From NCBI RefSeq assembly GCF_963675165.1, contig NC_087392.1:3301001-3365000 (forward strand): DNA of 64,000 nt, written 5' to 3'. This stretch comes from Halichondria panicea (Eukaryota; Porifera; Demospongiae; Suberitida; Halichondriidae). This document shows positions 3,046-45,687 of the stretch, in pieces (position 1 is the first letter of the stretch; every line of letters begins with the position of its first letter). The notes under the pieces were generated by a model. It had not been told where the DNA came from and searched no databases. It worked only from the letters and a program-made list of their open reading frames with translations. The position numbers and the translations under genes are program-made.

Positions 3046-3735
3046 CTTAGAGGTGGGAGATTCTGGTGGAGAAATCGAATACGGAGATTCTGGCGGAGAG
3101 GTGATTCTGGCGGAGAGGTAGGAGGAATCGAATACTGGTTGATAGGTAGGAGGTAGGAGATCGTAATTTACGTTTCACATATGATTATTACTACGGCTAC
3201 TTAAACAGAGACTCAGACATTCCTGTTGTGATACTGGCTAACCAACTGTACATGCAAGAGTTACCACATGGCCTTGTGTTAGTCCACGTGGGTCTCAGTG
3301 TTATTGAGCCCCTCCCACTCTTTAGTTACCATGGTTATCCTTATCCTCAGTACATGGTTATCCTCAGTACAGTACATTAGAGAAACTGTAAAAGCTAGCT
3401 AGTTTTATTCAAGTCTAGTAACTGTCACTATTAAGCTGTAGATTAGTTGCAGTGAGTCCTCTCAGACGCTGTTTAAGAGTAGCACCACCCTGTGTACGTC
3501 CCTGAGGTACTTACTCATTTTAATACTTACTCATTTTAAGGTATAGGAGCACTTTATATGTAGCCATGCTGTCAATAATAGTACGTACTATACAGAATTG
3601 CCACTTTCATCCTTCTCTGTACCATTTCCTTGATCACCTTGTTGAATATGTCTCGCACAGCCGCATCCTTTAACGAATGGTACGGTATGCACTGAACCGG
3701 CAAAGCATGTGCATGAGTGTGGCTGGAGTTCGTAG
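3046..3735. other. No recognisable gene
   Basis: AT-rich sequence with short tandem duplications (16 bp near 3507). Nothing recognisable as coding, RNA or transposon ends. Confidence 0.5.
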
Positions 3736-31383: not shown

Positions 31384-32190
31384 AAAGCACACATCCTCCA
31401 CTGACATTTATAAATACCCATTGACATTTATAAATACCCATTGACATTTATAAATACACATGGACATTTATATATACCCATGGACATTTATATATACCCA
31501 TGGACATTTATAAATACCCATGGACATTTATATATACCCATGGACATTTATAAATACCCATGGACATATATAAATACCCATGGACATATATAAATGTCTA
31601 TGGGTATTTATAAATACCTGTGGACAATTATAAATGTCTACGGGTATTTATAAATACCCATGGACATTTATAAATACCCATTGACATTTATAAATACACA
31701 TGGACATTTATATATACCCATGGACATTTATATATACCCATGGATTATATATACCCATGGACATTTTATAAAAATACCCATGGACATTTATATATACCCA
31801 TGGACATTTATAAATACCCATTGACATTTATAAATACCCATTGACATATGACATATATAAATACCCATGGACATATATAAATGTCTATGGGTATTTATAA
31901 ATACCTGTGGACATTTATAAATGTCTATGGGTATTTATAAATACCCATTGACATTTATAAATACACATGGACATTTATAAATACCCATGGACATATAATA
32001 AATACCCATGGACATTTATATATACCCATGGACATTTATAAATACCCATGGACATATATAAATACCCATGGACATTTATAAATACCCATGGACATATAAA
32101 TACCCATGGACATATATAAATGTCTATGGGTATTTATAAATATCCATGGACATTTATAAATACCCATGGACATATATATATGTCTCACTC
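31384..32190. repeat. ~20-bp minisatellite with inverted blocks
   Basis: About 40 copies of CATTTATAAATACCCATGGA and variants. In four places the orientation flips (ATGTCTATGGGTATTTATAA), creating strong hairpins. Confidence 0.95.
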
Positions 32191-36557: not shown

Positions 36558-37167
36558 CTTATTTAGAAGTACAATACTTTATGTATTATCATAATTATCA
36601 GGACTACGTACTACCTGATTTATGTATAATTATAATTATTTGTATATACAAAATAATCTATTAATAAATTATTATTGTGCAGGTGTGAGGTGTGAGATAC
36701 CAGCTACTTGAAGAGCATCAGCTAAGTCTTTATCTTCAGCTTCTTCCATATTAAGTAACATATAGAGCTTACACACAGTACAGAGAGACAGCAATAGAGA
36801 CAGACACCCAAATTGAAGAGCTTAGACACAGTACAGAGAGACAGCAATAGAAGACACCCAAATTTAAGACTGTACAGAGAGACAGCAATAGAAGATTAAG
36901 ATTAAGACACCCAAATTTAATAGTACACGCACACGTGGTATAGTGGAGTGCGCATGCATAAATAAAAACTCTTTGCACGTACAAAATCTGGAGTAAATTT
37001 TGCACGCGTAAAACAACAGCCTCAAATTTTGCTCCCGTGAATATAGTGAATTTCTTTTGAGTCATATACTGAATGTTTGCGCGCGCTATTTTGTACTTAT
37101 CGCAAGCGCGAATTATGTGTCAACGTTTGGCTTTCCATACTATGGCTTTTCCATACTAGAGTAAGTA

Positions 37168-37541
37168 ATCAAACCTCGGACTATACCTATATTCGGACGC
37201 GTTTTCCATGGACTCAAAGCAGCTATCCAGATTTTAGCCACATCTACAAGTCACTGGTGCTTGGTACTACCTAGCAGCCAACTCTCAGCCTGTTCCTCAC
37301 AACGACGCACTGGTCACGAGCTCTCAAAAACGAGTCCGAAATAACCGAAATAATCAAAATACGGACGAAGGGACACTACTTTAGACTGCGTAGCTTGAGA
37401 TATTTCTAGTTTCTGTGCCTCCTGTACTTCTTCTTAGCTAGATCTACCATCATGCAAAAAATCAGCAGTGGCAGCTGCACAACAAACTCCAGAAACCAGA
37501 CTGAAAATAGCAGCCCCACCCACTAATTTAGGATCTCGGAC
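37168..37541 (+). repeat. Left terminal inverted repeat
   Basis: Reverse complement of 44655-45030; begins ATCAAACC after TA and includes CTCACAACGACGCACTGGTC. Confidence 0.9.
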
Positions 37542-37918
37542 GCATGTGCAATGCATATATAGGCAGATCTACACGTGTTAATGAGCTAGTCTATGCGAGA
37601 GTCTATGAGCTATTAGCCAAAAGTCTAAAAGAAAAACTCTCTACCTGAAGGACAAAATCAAAGGAGGGGCAGAGAATCGGTGGATTTGTTTGTAAGTGCC
37701 ACACTAGATCTACATACAGTAGACTATAACTAGAGTGTCTTTATGTGATGATGTTTTGTGTGTATACAGATTGTTAGTAATTAACTAGGTATGGCTGAAG
37801 GCTATATTTTAAGAAGTAAGCTTGCATCACGTCCATCAACACCAGCAGTTTGACGGTAGATTTACTCACCAACGACCGCTGTACAAGTCATGGGTGGATG
37901 ACAGTATGAAAAAAAGCT

Positions 37919-40562
37919 ATGGAAGCAGTTGTCAAGAATGGAGCAAGTGTTAGAGAGGCAGCAGTTTGCTTTGGTGTGCCCAAGTCAACTTTGGGGGATC
38001 GAATCAGTGGCAGAGTTCAACACGGTGATGTCAGTGGCCCCCTAAAATACCTCTCAACTGCGGAAGAAAATGACTTAGCCAAATTCTTAGCCAAATTCTT
38101 GATAAAATGTGCTGGTATTGGATATCCTAAGACAAGATTAGAAGTTATATCTCTTGTCCAAACGATTATTGATTATAAAGGGATTCACTCAACTGTTACG
38201 GCTGGTTGGTGGCAGAGATTTATCAAGCGAAATGCGAACATCACTTTAAGGGCCCCTTCTCCACTATCAAATGCTCGAGCATATGCAACAGATCCTGATA
38301 TCATGAACAGGTACTTTGATCTACTTGAGGAGACTTTGTTACGGTATGAACTGAAAGATAAGCCGTGTTTAACATGGATGAAACTGGCCTCCCCATGGAT
38401 CCTAAGGCTTCTAAAAGCGTTTACAGAAAAGGAGAAAAAATCCTTTAGCACGCTCTAGTGGTAATAAATCCCAGACGACAGTAGTAGCCTGTGTGAGTGC
38501 TGCAGGCTATTGTATGCCACCTTTGGTGATCTTGAATCGGAAGAGTGTTCCGAGCTGCTATAAGGAAGGAGAAGTTCCTGGGACCAAATATGGCCTGTCA
38601 CCAAAAGGAAGGATGGATTGACCGTGACTTGTTTCACCAGTGGTTTGCTTTTCATTTTCTTCGATATGCTCCTCAAGAACGTCCCTTATTGCTGCTTCTT
38701 GATGGCCACTCCAGCCACTTTTGCCCGGAAACAGTTCATCTAGCTGATGAACATGATATAGTTGTATTTATTCTCCCTCCAAACTTATTCTCCCTCCAAA
38801 CTCTACCCACCTATTGCAGCCTTTGGATAAGGGGACATTTTCCCCTTTAAAGACTTATTGGAAACAGGAGTGTCACGAATTTATGAGCAAAAATCCAGGC
38901 GAAGTAGTGTCCCGTTTTACCTTTTCCAAAATTTTGGGAAGATCATGGGAAAGATGTATGGGAAAGATGTATGAGATTATCCAATGTGCAAGCGGGATTT
39001 AAAGTAACCGGTGTGTACCCTTGATCGTGAAGCAGCTTTCAAGCAAATTAATATGCCTTCTGGTGTTGCCAAAAGTTTTTCTCTGCCGTATCAACCCATG
39101 TTTAGTCCTGCGCCCAGGAAAAAGAAAGCTGCAGCTATACATGTAGATCTAGTACGTTATTCAGAAGATGATGATATCAGCTCTGAAGAATCGTTCAGTG
39201 ACGTACGAGCAGTACATACACCTGTAGGTGGCAGTTTTGATTATGAGAGTGCAGCACGAGAACCTGGTTTTGGTGAACATGCCAAGATGCCACCCTATAC
39301 GTCTAATGGTGATACGGATGACAACAGTTCCAGTGACACTGATCGTGTGACACCTTTAATTTACTGCAGCCAAACCAAAAAAATGCTGAAAACACCCATC
39401 CCACCTCCAAGAAAAGTTGATCCTTTGAAAGTAAAATCTTGTGGTAAAATTCTCACTAGCAGCGAATGTATGGCTATTATGGATAAAAAAAAAGAAGAGA
39501 AAGATGAAAAGGAGGCTGAGAGAAAGCGTTTGCAGGCTGAGAGGAAGCAATTGAAGGCTGAAAACAAGCGTTTGCTGGCTGAAAAACGAGCTTCGAAGCT
39601 ATCAGCCAAGAAATCGGGAAAGAGTGTTTCCACAAAAGTGTCTAAAGCTCAGCATTCCTTATGTGTTGAAAACCCACCTGAACCGGTTTTTACTGCTAAA
39701 GAACTTGAACTTTTTACCACCAGGTTTGAAAATGGTTTTGACCTCACGCATGATGACCGATATAACTTATGGTTAAAAGAAAATGGATCTCCCCAGAATG
39801 GTGTGTATAATAGTGTTTGGTATACTGCAGAATGTGCTATAATCATGTTTCTATTGTATTTAGCCAGGCAAAAGCGAGTTACGAAGCCTACTTTCAAAGT
39901 GAGAGAAAGCATTGGTCAAGGTGGTTACTTCTGCTATTTAATATTGACATAGCTAATATCCATAATTGCAGATTGGAGTGATGCTGATGAGTTGTGCCAC
40001 GTGACGGGGATAGATTCAAGTGGCGTATCTGGTGTGTTGATTATTGATTTAGCTATAATCATACAGCTACATAATTATGTTATATATACTTGGATAGCAC
40101 TTGAATTGAATAGCCTGCAACATGTCCGCTTAACACGTCATAACTTTCGCTCAATTTGGCGATGCATGAGGCTATTTCTATTGAGCATAATTATAGTACT
40201 GCAGTCGACTATACTCGTGATTAATACATTTTCTAACAGATGAAGAGCCAGTCAAGTCCAAGGTACTGTCTGGTAAGTAGGTTTATTTTATAATTATATG
40301 CGACCAATTCGGATGATGTGCCTTTAGTTGCAGAGCAAAGAAGGAACGCTGGAGTGAGGGCAACTAGAGCTAACCCATCTGGTGAGTGAGTAAATTTAAT
40401 TATCCCCCTTCATATTAGGACCCACCCCCAAAGCAAATCTACCCCCCTGAAACAATTTAAGACTCTTAAAGGTAGCTCTGAACTCCGTCATATTCACATG
40501 TATATTATTAGGAAGCAGTGTTGGATTGAGAGCTACTAAATCTACTAGAGCTAACCCGTCAG
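37919..40562 (+). CDS. pogo-like transposase (HTH-psq, DDE_1) with downstream small exons; several frame breaks
   Basis: Domains: psq-type helix-turn-helix (AVVKNGASVREAAVCFGVPK, STLGDR), CENP-B-like second DNA-binding region (GWWQRFIKRNANITLRAP), DDE_1 catalytic core with MDETGLPMDPK (first Asp), LLLLDGHSSHF (second Asp) and LQPLDKGTFSP (third). A Lys/Glu-rich coiled coil (about 39480-39610) and FENGFDLTHDDRYNLWLKE form the C-terminal part. Breaks: one extra A in a run near 37911, an indel near 38371, a 4-bp duplication AAGGAAGG near 38604, a 17-bp duplication at 38768-38801, a 13-bp duplication near 38945 and an indel near 39015. The main exon ends at 39800. Small exons 39972-40031, 40240-40272, 40334-40381 and 40512-40562 (60, 33, 48 and 51 nt) follow, all joined in phase 1, leading into the repeat array. 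The enzyme would excise and insert the element at TA. Confidence 0.7.
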
Positions 40563-43500
40563 GTTAGTGGCATATGTTGTACGTCGCATTCACATACACG
40601 TCTATTTTTAGAGCCCGTAAACAGTGTTGGAGTGAGAGCTACGTTGGAGTGAGAGCTACTAAATCTACTAGAGCTAACCCGCCAGGTTAGTGGTTCATGG
40701 TACCATAATTATGTTGTCGCATTCACATACACATCTATTTTAGAGCCCGTAAACAGTGTTGGAGTGAGAGCTACTAAATCTACTAGAGCTAACCCGTCAG
40801 GTTAGTGGTTTATGGTACCATAATTATGTTGTCGCATTCACATACATTCACATACACGTCTATTTTAGAGCCCGTAAACAGTGTTGGAGTGAGAGCTACT
40901 AAATCTACTAGAGCTAACCCGTCAGGTTAGTGGTTCATGGTACCATAATTATGTTGTCGCATTCACATACACGTCTATTTTATAGCCCGTAAACAGTGTT
41001 GGAGTGAGAGCTACTAAATCTACTAGAGCTAACCCGTCAGGTTAGTGGTTCATGGTACCATAATTATGTTGTCGCATTCACATACACGTCTATTTTTAGA
41101 GCCCGTAAACAGTGTTGGAGTGAGAGCTACTAAATCTACTAGAGCTAACCCGTCAGGTTAGTGGTTCATGGTACCATAATTATGTTGTCGCATTCACATA
41201 CACGTCTATTTTATAGCCCGTAAACAGTGTTGGAGTCTAAATCTACTAGAGCTAACCCGTCAGGTTAGTGGTTCATGGTACCATAATTATGTTGTCGCAT
41301 TCACATACACGTCTATTTTTAGAGCCCGTAAACAGTGTTGGAGTGAGAGCTACTAAATCTACTAGAGCTAACCCGCCAGGTTAGTGGTTCATGGTACCAT
41401 AATTATGTTGTTGCATTCACATACACGTCTATTTTTAGAGCCCGTAAACAGTGTTGGAGTGAGAGCTACTAAATCTACTAGAGCTAACCCGTCAGGTTAG
41501 TGGTTCATGGTACCATAATTATGTTGTCGCATTCACATACACGTCTATTTTATAGCCCGTAAACAGTGTTGGAGTGAGAGCTACTAAATCTACTAGAGCT
41601 AACCCGTCAGGTTAGTGGTTCATGGTACCATAATTATGTTGTCGCATTCACATACACGTCTATTTTTAGAGCCCGTAAACAGTGTTGGAGTGAGAGCTAC
41701 TAAATCTACTAGAGCTAACCCGTCAGGTTAGTGGTTCATGGTACCATAATTATGTTGTTGCATTCACATACACGTCTATTTTAGAGCCCGTAAACAGTGT
41801 TGGAGTGAGAGCTACTAAATCTACTAGAGCTAACCCGCCAGGTTAGTGGTTCATGGTACCATAATTATGTTGTCGCATTCACATACACGTCTATTTTTAG
41901 AGCCCGTAAACAGTGTTGGAGTGAGAGCTACTAAATCTACTAGAGCTAACCCGCCAGGTTAGTGGTTCATGGTACCATAATTATGTTGTTGCATTCACAT
42001 ACACGTCTATTTTTAGAGCCCGTAAACAGTGTTGGAGTGAGAGCTACTAAATCTACTACAGCTAACCCGCCAGGTTAGTGGTTCATGGTACCATAATTAT
42101 GTTGTCGCATTCACATACACGTCTATTTTAGAGCCCGTAAACAGTGTTGGAGTGAGAGCTACTAAATCTACTAGAGCTAACCCGTCAGGTTAGTGGTTCA
42201 TGGTACCATAATTATGTTGTCGCATTCACATACACGTCTATTTTTAGAGCCCGTAAACAGTGTTGGAGTGAGAGCTACTAAATCTACTAGAGCTAACCCG
42301 TCAGGTTAGTGGTTCATGGTACCATAATTATGTTGTCGCATTCACATACACGTCTATTTTAGAGCCCGTAAACAGTGTTGGAGTGAGAGCTACTAAATCT
42401 ACTAGAGCTAACCCGTCAGGTTAGTGGTTCATGGTACCATAATTATGTTGTCGCATTCACATACACGTCTATTTTATAGCCCGTAAACAGTGTTGGAGTG
42501 AGAGCTACTAAATCTACTAGAGCTAACCCGTCAGGTTAGTGGTTCATGGTACCATAATTATGTTGTCGCATTCACATACACGTCTATTTTTAGAGCCCGT
42601 AAACAGTGTTGGAGTGAGAGCTACTAAATCTACTAGAGCTAACCCGTCAGGTTAGTGGTTCATGGTACCATAATTATGTTGTTGCATTCACATACACGTC
42701 TATTTTAGAGCCCGTAAACAGTGTTGGAGTGAGAGCTACTAAATCTACTAGAGCTAACCCGCCAGGTTAGTGGTTCATGGTACCATAATTATGTTGTCGC
42801 ATTCACATACACGTCTATTTTTAGAGCCCGTAAACAGTGTTGGAGTGAGAGCTACTAAATCTACTAGAGCTAACCCGCCAGGTTAGTGGTTCATGGTACC
42901 ATAATTATGTTGTTGCATTCACATACACGTCTATTTTTAGAGCCCGTAAACAGTGTTGGAGTGAGAGCTACTAAATCTACTAGAGCTAACCCGTCAGGTT
43001 AGTGGTTCATGGTACCATAATTATGTTGTCGCATTCACATACACGTCTATTTTATAGCCCGTAAACAGTGTTGGAGTGAGAGCTACTAAATCTACTAGAG
43101 CTAACCCGTCAGGTTTCATGGTACCATAATTATGTTGTCGCATTCACATACACGTCTATTTTTAGAGCCCGTAAACAGTGTTGGAGTGAGAGCTACTAAA
43201 TCTACTAGAGCTAACCCGTCAGGTTAGTGGTTCATGGTACCATAATTATGTTGTTGCATTCACATACACGTCTATTTTAGAGCCCGTAAACAGTGTTGGA
43301 GTGAGAGCTACTAAATCTACTAGAGCTAACCCGCCAGGTTAGTGGTTCATGGTACCATAATTATGTTGTCGCATTCACATACACGTCTATTTTTAGAGCC
43401 CGTAAACAGTGTTGGAGTGAGAGCTACTAAATCTACTAGAGCTAACCCGCCAGGTTAGTGGTTCATGGTACCATAATTATGTTGTTGCATTCACATACAC

Positions 43501-44170
43501 GTCTATTTTTAGAGCCCGTAAACAGTGTTGGAGTGAGAGCTACTAAATCTACTAGAGCTAACCCGCCAGGTTAGTGGTTTATGGTACCATAATTATGTTG
43601 TCGCATTCACATACACGTCTATTTTAGAGCCCGTAAACAGTGTTGGAGTGAGAGCTACTAAATCTACTAGAGCTAACCCGTCAGGTTAGTGGTTCATGGT
43701 ACCATAATTATGTACCATAATTATGTTGTCGCATTCACATACACGTCTATTTTTAGAGCCCGTAAACAGTGTTGGAGTGAGAGCTACTAAATCTACTAGA
43801 GCTAACCCGTCAGGTTAGTGGTTCATGGTACCATAATTATGTTGTCGCATTCACATACACGTCTATTTTAGAGCCCGTAAACAGTGTTGGAGTGAGAGCT
43901 ACTAAATCTACTAGAGCTAACCCGTCAGGTTAGTGGTTCATGGTACCATAATTATGTTGTCGCATTCACATACACGTCTATTTTTAGAGCCCGTAAACAG
44001 TGTTGGAGTGAGAGCTACTAAATCTACTAGAGCTAACCCGTCAGGTTAGTGGTTCATGGTACCATCTGTTGTCGCATTCACATACATGTGTATTTTTTGG
44101 CCCAGGAAGCAATGTTGGAATGAGAGCTATTAAATCTACTAGAGCTAACCCAACCCGTCAGGTTAGTGGT
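40563..44170 (+). repeat. Tandem array of ~30 micro-exon/intron units
   Basis: Units of 115-117 bp, nearly identical. Each has an acceptor (TATTTTTAG or TATTTTAG), a 57-nt segment, and a donor (GTCAG|GTTAGT or GCCAG|GTTAGT) followed by a 58-59-nt spacer. Read in the phase delivered by the upstream exons, each unit gives EPVNSVGVRATKSTRANPS; the other two frames contain stops. Five units (about 40981, 41213, 41551, 42475, 43051) have TATAG and lose two exon bases. One (about 41225) lacks 8 nt. One (40626-40659) has a 17-bp duplication. The last unit (44106-44161) is diverged. Confidence 0.85.
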
Positions 44171-44654
44171 TTAATAGTACCGTATTGAAATTGGTAAAGA
44201 GCCCACCCAAGTGTGCTGTACATTTCTGGTTCATATATAGTCAAGTTCCTAAATGACAATGTCACTATATATGCATGTTACTCGTCTCAATTAACGTCAT
44301 GTACAAACGCAATAAAAAGAAATAGTGATTAGGGAGTTCCATGTATTTACCCTGTAGTGCTCGAGGACAATTCTTTTTGTTCTGCTACTGATTGCTCTGT
44401 ACAAAAGAGCGGGATAGAGTTCCCTGTGTGGATCAGTTGTGATGTGTGCTCCAGGTGGTATCATCTTTACTGTATAGGACTGAAGAAAACCAAGAAACAG
44501 TTTACTTGTGTACAATGTATATAATGAACAGTAAGCTTGTGTAGATCTATATTCAATGTGTATAGTTCTGATTAAATACAGTATACTAACAGTATACTAC
44601 CTTTCTGGGCTCTGGTAGAGATCGATTTTCTTTTAACCATTAAGTGAACTCTGT
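44171..44654. other. Transposon interior after the array, no gene seen
   Basis: A 3' part of the element without a recognisable terminal exon or poly(A) arrangement; the small minus-strand frame 44297-44515 has no support. Confidence 0.4.
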
Positions 44655-45030
44655 GTCCGAGATCCTAAATTAGTGGGTGGGGCTGCTATTTTCAGTCTGG
44701 TTTCTGGAGTTTGTTGTGCAGCTGCCACTGCTGATTTTTTGCATGATGGTAGATCTAGCTAAGAAGAAGTACAGGAGGCACAGAAACTAGAAATATCTCA
44801 AGCTACGCAGTCTAAAGTAGTGTCCGGATAACGGTACCTTCGTCCGTATTTTGATTATTTCGAACTCGTTTTTGAGAGCTCGTGACCAGTGCGTCGTTGT
44901 GAGGAACAGGCTGAGAGTTAGCTGCTAGGTATTACCAAGCACCAGTGACTTGTAGATGTGGCTAAAATCTGGATAGCTGCTTTGAGTCCATGGAAAACGC
45001 GTCCGAATATAGGTATAGTCCGAGTTTGAT
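44655..45030 (-). repeat. Right terminal inverted repeat
   Basis: Reverse complement of 37168-37541; keeps GGATAACGGTACC, which the left repeat lacks. Confidence 0.9.
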
Positions 45031-45032
45031 TA

Positions 45033-45687
45033 CTTTTGTTGTATGCAATAATTAAACAATGCAATAATTCAACAACAATTGTGGCACTGATGGATGAGTG
45101 GTTCGAAATTGCAGGCCAAACTGTTCGATATTCCCACGTACAAAATACCAACCAAGGTGCGGAATTTTGCGACAAAATATATTCTTTTTTTTTACAAAAA
45201 ACGTGTCGAATACACTGCTAGAAAATTGGAAAGTATCGAATCAAAACATACGCTGTCAAACTGTGATGCATGTTACAAGCAACAGAAATCGTTTCCTAGT
45301 AAACCACTGTATACCACACCAGTCTGTATCATCTGTCTGGTCACAATCACAATCACGCACTTCTTCAGTCTATCACGTACTTCAGTCTACAACACATCAA
45401 TTATATACATAATTAATAGGCTAACTACAAACTGTTAAGCACATACATGTACATGTACCTTCACATGTATGACATCGTCGTCATCAATAGCAGACTTATA
45501 GCACTGGAAAGCACTGAACTGTTTCCATCCTCATTCTCCGAACTGTCAGAACTGAGGTCTGTTAAGCCTGAGGCTACATGGACCATCAAATGTAATGCTA
45601 CACACCTACACTTTTCAACACTTTTGTTGCATACTTACAAATCCCGAGAAGCATAGATGCCGAGATAACTTCCAAATCTTTTGTGTT
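45033..45687. other. No recognised gene
   Basis: The plus-strand frames 45094-45438 and 45447-45656 are open but have no motif. The first (KIPTKVRNFATKYILFFYKK) is basic and could be a decayed exon. Confidence 0.35.

Follow-up and report, generated by a model that had tools for sequence, protein, structure and literature searches.

A pogo-type transposon with a terminal PHD-finger exon and recurrent amplification of phase-1 micro-exons downstream of its transposase exon

The window analysed here, a 64,000-nucleotide stretch of contig NC_087392.1 (positions 3,301,001 to 3,365,000, forward strand), carries between positions 37159 and 45035 a pogo-type DNA transposon with inverted repeats of about 385 bp. 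Downstream of its large transposase exon lie small phase-1 exons of six kinds, one of which, the 57-nt exon of a 116-bp unit, is repeated 30 times, and the series leads into a terminal exon encoding a PHD finger. We consider it likely that splicing assembles from these small exons a basic linker of variable length, which would join the DDE catalytic core of the transposase to the PHD finger.

Anatomy of the transposon and its three copies

The main transposase exon (37791..39800, plus strand) ends in phase 1. In agreement with the pogo-like transposase proposed in the initial annotation, Pfam searches identified an N-terminal HTH_psq domain (PF05225, E 2.3e-8, above the cut-off; HTH_Tnp_Tc5, at E 0.16, fell below it) and a DDE_1 domain (PF03184, E 3e-22). 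Residues D195, D302 and D338 were invariant in all 23 aligned sequences, the last two being separated by 35 residues (DD35D), and a charged stretch was present within the same exon beside the psq helix-turn-helix and the catalytic domain. In the window copy small indels disrupt the transposase frame, and searching for homologues with the last frame left open in its main exon yielded no match among 1332 candidates. The search with the main exon of a sister copy, which is open across 661 aa, retrieved 817 proteins.

The first four small exons map, on the plus strand, to 39972..40031 (60 nt, encoding DWSDADELCHVTGIDSSGVS), 40240..40272 (33 nt, DEEPVKSKVLS), 40334..40381 (48 nt, EQRRNAGVRATRANPS) and 40512..40562 (51 nt, GSSVGLRATKSTRANPS); their lengths are those first reported and all four are open in phase 1. 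They precede the array (40612..44044, plus strand), claimed to hold about 30 units and counted here at 30, the 57-nt exons of which encode EPVNSVGVRATKSTRANPS or ..PP. One last variant unit follows, whose exon (44106..44161, plus strand; acceptor GGCCCAG) measures 56 nt in the window and 51 nt (GSNVGVRAIKSTRANPS) in the two sister copies. Every small exon and the terminal exon are preceded by AG, all but the terminal exon are followed by GT, and all are in phase 1. An intact unit, consisting of a TTTTAG acceptor, a 57-nt exon and a GTTAGT donor, as originally described, was found at 24 of the 30 positions; the array introns, first given as 58-59 nt, are mostly 58-60 nt long, with a range of 53-72 nt. 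The damage noted previously was seen again: the first array unit carries a 17-bp duplication and five units read TATAG (their exons being measured from the shifted AG), one of these with an additional 8-nt deletion and another with a damaged donor. It is possible that the TATAG units are simply passed over in splicing, since their exons are symmetrical; but exon skipping is rare in Amphimedon (PMC4432959), and TATAG supplies an AG two bases off, use of which would shift the frame. The suggestion that two upstream exons are diverged relatives of the unit held up. The near relative at 40512..40562 is 98% identical to the unit over 55 nt, and the older one at 40334..40381 differs from it by four silent changes and one replacement across 11 aligned codons (a small sample), with no match to the unit longer than 9 bases in its flanks outside the exon.

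The terminal exon (44358..44524, plus strand, 167 nt), comprising a PHD finger and a stop codon, is entered in phase 1, as the array delivers it. It is followed at 44571..44576 (plus strand) by an ATTAAA, read in the sequence, which we take to be a possible poly-A signal. With the tail of the sister copy on contig C14, Pfam returned PF00628 (PHD) at 25.4 bits for a cut-off of 24. All eight C4HC3 zinc ligands are present, and the best solved structures matched in the PDB were the PHD fingers of KDM5B (E 4.2e-5) and Alfin-like 1 (E 5.9e-5); a single-sequence structure model of the exon reached a pLDDT of 53, too poor to be used. The unit peptide RATKSTRA (e.g. exon 41100-41156) comes near, in composition, to the histone H3 tail, ARTKQTAR, either by chance or as mimicry beside a PHD finger. 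PHD fingers of this kind usually read a free N-terminus, and the likeness is therefore kept as a mere remark.

The genome searched comprised 131 Mb in 39 contigs, and copies are labelled by contig, C16 being the window copy. The transposon was found at three places, C16, C13 and C14, and the 116-bp unit at those three places only, with repeat counts there that are lower bounds. In the window, the left terminal inverted repeat (37159..37544, plus strand), directly preceded by TA at 37157-37158, matches the right one (44652..45035, minus strand) at 368 of 394 aligned columns. The right end lacks its last four bases here, together with the TA that C13 has, and the C14 copy is truncated at its right end; TA flanks both sides in the C13 copy only, which fits a TA target-site duplication. 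Outside the array, unique substitutions numbered 10 in C16 (5 from the 5′ part and 5 from the 3′ part), 7 in C13 and 7 in C14, and unique indels 16, 3 and 1, respectively, an odd spectrum for copies of similar substitution age. Other aligner settings (two of the three tried for the 5′ part) repeat a higher C16 figure of 23 substitutions and 15 indels, in which the substitutions are inflated by the forcing together of a 9-base insertion and a 12-base deletion of the left repeat. The idea that the window copy is older than its sisters was accordingly dropped, the substitutions being alike upon proper alignment and only the indels in excess. With so few unique substitutions in each, the copies are therefore young.

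The number of units, in contrast, is 30 in C16, nine in C13 and four in C14, the last two copies consisting entirely of intact units (9/9 and 4/4). The first and last units correspond across the copies, and it is the middle ones that vary. This series, in phase 1 throughout, is what the phase-compatible exon amplification put forward in the initial annotation implied; loss of splice sites or of the frame in other genomic copies would have spoken against it, and C13 and C14 keep all array splice sites and the frame. The variable basic tail predicted at the same time stood in part: the basic segment does vary among the three copies, but, since the array leads into a PHD finger, it would be a linker and not a tail. 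The PHD exon had been missed, as had the two sister copies and the arrays of related elements; the variant unit after the array and the broken transposase frame are further corrections.

Whole blocks of units are duplicated in the C16 array. When the order of unit types is compared with itself displaced by 13 units, 12 of 17 comparable positions agree, with a run of 10, and at a displacement of five 6 of 25 do, with a run of 4, pointing to blocks of about 13 and 5 units. The TATAG units are spread within the duplicated blocks, and the TATAG mutation therefore predates the block duplications. Assuming that the assembly is right, the array would thus have kept growing after it was damaged. The window copy, with its transposase frame broken and an array that grew by duplicating a damaged unit, could not be retained as the working example for which it had been taken.

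A predicted reading frame through the small exons

The C14 copy supports splicing through the units. Without any mending, its exons join into a predicted frame of 11 exons, 2622 nt and 873 aa; the tail of C13, with nine units, is likewise open right through the PHD exon, although its main exon is broken like that of the window copy. Exon chains were next searched using generic splice matrices and an intron limit of 450 nt, only exons open in phase and with a length multiple of three being allowed and the first donor and last acceptor being fixed beforehand. The search recovered exactly the small exons described above in both C14 (9/9) and C13 (14/14). Chain scores were 21.1 and 28.9, respectively, compared to 0 or less in 40 Markov-resampled controls per copy, and no chain was found in C14 or C13 in phase 0 or phase 2.

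Length changes point in the same direction. Outside the window copy, the four exon indels measured 9, 9, 6 and 42 nt, all of them multiples of three, whereas only one of eight intron indels (counted by hand in pairwise alignments) was a multiple of three. The difference was significant (Fisher p = 0.024) in a test that took three of the four exon events and left out the 42-nt one, which concerns the last unit of the related element C9. In the unit exons of the window copy, on the other hand, the indels are +17, -8 and +5, none of which keeps the frame.

Unlike micro-exon series in related transposons

Related transposases, at 45-52% identity, occur at least a dozen times in the genome. Within 6 kb downstream and on the same strand of related DDE places (n = 50) lay 14 of 66 PHD matches, as opposed to none on the opposite strand and none upstream. 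In this comparison, 50 of the 75 DDE entries were set against all 66 PHD entries and the remaining 25 against 34 of the 66, which on reading include all that could lie near; these 25 gave no additional PHD match. Three of the 14 linked matches are copies of the present element, two belong to one other element, and several are weak when taken alone (E 0.02 to 0.1). The spacing from transposase to PHD finger was near-identical, at 3.4-3.6 kb, at six places (C1:8381474, C12:1383505, C1:13651570, C15:1484135, C15:2867450 and C3:3680470).

The stretch between the DDE and PHD exons was read in three related elements, C9 (with its sister on C3), C1 and C15, the main exons of which end in phase 1. All were found to carry, in the same place between transposase and PHD exons, a phase-1 micro-exon series unlike that of the window, and the units of different families share little sequence. 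C9 has exons of 63, 72 and 54 nt, then four units of 90 nt, another of 132 nt and a further one interrupted by an insertion; in its C3 sister all eight units have 90-nt exons, with 56-nt introns. The PHD exon is apparently cut short in both, and further pieces of this family lie on C16, C13 and C4. The insertion that splits the C9 array is unrelated, with the ends GGGGCGGATCCAGGGG and CCTGGATCCGCCCCTGG, and occupies about 1640-2425 on the minus strand of locus L039 (C9:3999500-4002900). In C1, a pair of exons A (57, 66 and 66 nt) and B (78, 78 and 69 nt) occurs three times and is followed by a PHD exon in phase 1 with its stop. In C15, a block of 93 + 48 + 33/39 nt occurs twice among other small exons, again followed by a PHD exon in phase 1.

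Mechanism, alternative explanations and comparison with known systems

On the grounds of this anatomy, we infer that the pre-mRNA is spliced through the units, its short introns being removed one by one. The product would be a Ser/Thr/Lys/Arg linker of net basic charge, to which each unit contributes about 19 aa and which is presumably disordered. Because all small exons are multiples of three between phase-1 introns, the gain or loss of any of them would leave the path from DDE core to PHD finger intact; linker length would drift among copies through unequal exchange or block duplication, and such drift would be tolerated, what counts being the reading frame and not the precise sequence. The PHD finger, which resembles readers of the H3 tail, could tether the transposase to marked chromatin or guide it there, with its reach and charge set by the linker, and retention of any of introns 5-10 of C14 would yield a form devoid of the PHD finger. 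The 30-unit window copy would then represent a damaged extreme. A splicing-based 'length counter', as contemplated in the initial annotation, may be possible.

Several observations weigh against a spliced linker. Chains in the related elements separated the phases less clearly than in C14 and C13: phase 0 scored 26.4 against 27.0 for phase 1 in C15, a weak separation, and 17.7 against 24.0 in C1, a moderate one, with controls reaching up to 4.4; the C1 chain also missed one B exon that has a weak donor. For C9 no chain was obtained under the 450-nt intron limit, because the insertion splits its array, and its controls reached 8.1; the exons of C9 and those upstream were found through motifs that we wrote ourselves. 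Intron 5 of C14, at 34 nt, may be too short for splicing. No protein at E ≤ 1 was retrieved with the spliced tail among 7996 candidates scored. Lastly, 8 of 34 changes in the array exons of relatives were silent, where 26% would be expected (as determined for a C9-family exon), and the amino acids of these arrays thus appear to be under no purifying selection. A frame that is kept together with a sequence that is free is the pattern expected of an in-frame linker.

The absence of purifying selection in the relatives' arrays also fits what we regard as a possible but rather doubtful alternative, namely that the array is a runaway minisatellite, a neutral tandem repeat that began from an exon-intron pair and grows long in dead copies without any role. 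The longest array indeed belongs to a copy whose transposase frame is broken, where the duplication of blocks of about 13 and 5 units has spread a TATAG-damaged unit and none of the three unit-exon indels is in frame, and the main exon of the nine-unit C13 copy is broken as well. However, acceptor, 57-nt exon and donor are retained by every unit of C13 and C14, and other families have, in the corresponding position, unlike arrays of their own in which the frame is kept. Neutral growth thus accounts for the window copy better than for the family.

The linker reading may be extended in two ways, in both of which exon number would act through intron retention. We advance the first quite tentatively and think it rather improbable: the DDE-to-PHD junction might be an evolvable splice module in which phase-1 micro-exons have been amplified repeatedly and independently (57-nt, 90-nt, 66+78-nt and 93+48+33-nt units in one genome), unit number tuning both linker length and the share of full-length, PHD-bearing product, so that exon copy number would set transposon activity. 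The second, compatible with a spliced linker and in our estimation unlikely, is a self-limiting splice cascade. Each unit would add an intron whose retention ends the protein (..NPSG*) before the PHD finger, and unit number would geometrically set the amount of full-length transposase and serve as a brake on transposition. The stops one residue after the exon in six of six GTTAGT introns of C14 (5-10), and those after three codons in all four C9 array introns tested, are in line with such a cascade, as is the prevalence of intron retention (45.0% of alternative splicing events) over exon skipping (1.8%) reported for Amphimedon in the available part of PMC4432959. On the other side, array introns are copies of one intron, and their stop is therefore a single observation; support from the relatives is mixed, with intron read-in running to 9 to 61 codons in C1 and 2 to 39 in C15.

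Consensus or assembly error, by which the damage of the window copy and perhaps the number 30 would be artefacts, seems to us similarly unlikely. It could explain why C16, with substitutions like those of its sisters, has so many more unique indels, and the copy does lie in a region rich in short exact duplications; but the C16 indels mostly span several bases, exact tandem duplications are among them, and the block-wise unit patterns are orderly. With the array present at three places, its units clean in two of them, and unlike arrays elsewhere, the phenomenon is in any case independent of the window copy. Direct repeats bound by transposase commonly occur close to transposon ends, yet that the array is such a DNA element, bound by transposase or a host factor and not coding, is hardly credible, given that it stands about 3.5 kb from one end and about 1.0 kb from the other and not subterminally, that the frame is kept by exons and not by introns, and that unit sequences vary among relatives while phase and place stay.

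Exact tandem duplications of 11-17 bp are dense between positions 819 and 56256 of the window (e.g. at 3086, 3968, 4386, 25908, 38768, 38945, 40626 and 52621). Leaving aside the array and everything beyond 56.9 kb, they number 50, of which 15 are exactly 17 bp long, followed by a sharp fall. A Markov control gave none at 11-17 bp, and 190 kb sampled from 19 other places gave 12, in a scan slightly different from that of the window in that arrays of three or more copies were dropped. Of the stretches around the sister copies, L006 has 12 duplications of 9-17 bp, all outside the transposon copy, and L007 has none; several of the duplications within the C16 transposon copy are absent from the sister copies. 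Such a density would result either from a mutational process whose ceiling lies near 17 bp or from errors in the consensus. The window also contains, at 31403-32178, a tandem array of 38.5 copies of the 20-bp unit GACATTTATAAATACCCATG.

Among known elements, the transposon resembles the Passer-like group of the pogo superfamily (PMC7386202) in its DDE_1 domain with DD35D spacing and its TA target site, the fit to Passer being one of spacing. The same article describes very long terminal inverted repeats (392-856 bp) in some unclassified insect pogo elements; its main text contains none of the words 'PHD', 'intron' and 'sponge', and the host here is probably a sponge. Tandem exons of one length and one intron phase, recently and clonally expanded and varying in number among the closest paralogues, are described for the LRR genes of Tetrahymena in the part of PMC6564038 available; those are host genes with an LRR repeat, phase 2 and 90 bp, as opposed to a transposase, phase 1, a linker and several unlike units. 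The micro-exon genes of schistosomes (PMC4350168, in part) likewise consist, over most of their coding region, of very small symmetrical exons that allow alternative splicing in frame, but encode host-interface proteins and not transposases, and near-identical tandem exon arrays are not described in that part of the article. A PHD finger tied to a cut-and-paste recombinase system is also known from the Kelch-PHD partner in the RAG2/Transib system; there, going by the available text of PMC4411706, the PHD finger is on a separate protein and exon arrays go unmentioned.

A further likeness is seen in Amphimedon queenslandica, where isoform X7 of LOC109590340 (P0038), a transposase homologue with 42% identity, has 10.2 tandem 16-aa repeats in the same place, after a YNLWL motif. 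The repeat is a different one, and no PHD finger was read in isoform X7. P0038 is the one listed homologue that bears an organism name, and it is the basis for regarding a sponge as the probable host. In a script scan of the best 120 of the 817 homologues, 13 of which were also read individually, at least three tandem peptide copies were present somewhere in 14, several of them inside the main exon, and the region after the DDE core seems prone to repeat growth whether introns are present or absent. Tandem peptide repeats within the exon after the DDE core were seen in P0005 (21.5 copies of 17 aa), P0013 (20.6 of 16 aa) and P0008 (7.2 of 12 aa).

The listed titles and abstract openings, with most subscription papers lying outside the search, reported neither a micro-exon array in a transposase nor a PHD finger on a pogo transposase. 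Exon arrays, small symmetrical exons and a recombinase-linked PHD finger were each known before; what would be new here is their meeting in a transposon of the pogo superfamily that ends in a PHD exon and shows recurrent amplification of micro-exons. A few host gene families are known to have tandem exon arrays, and here such arrays seem to arise repeatedly in selfish elements. Sister copies whose substitutions differ by a fraction of a percent and which yet carry 4 to 30 exons form a natural series, which could inform on how exon arrays grow, how the spliceosome copes with dozens of almost identical exons of 57 nt and introns of 58 nt, and whether a transposase can be tuned by the number of its exons. 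The existence of PHD-ended pogo-like elements, furthermore, makes a link to chromatin-targeted insertion plausible.

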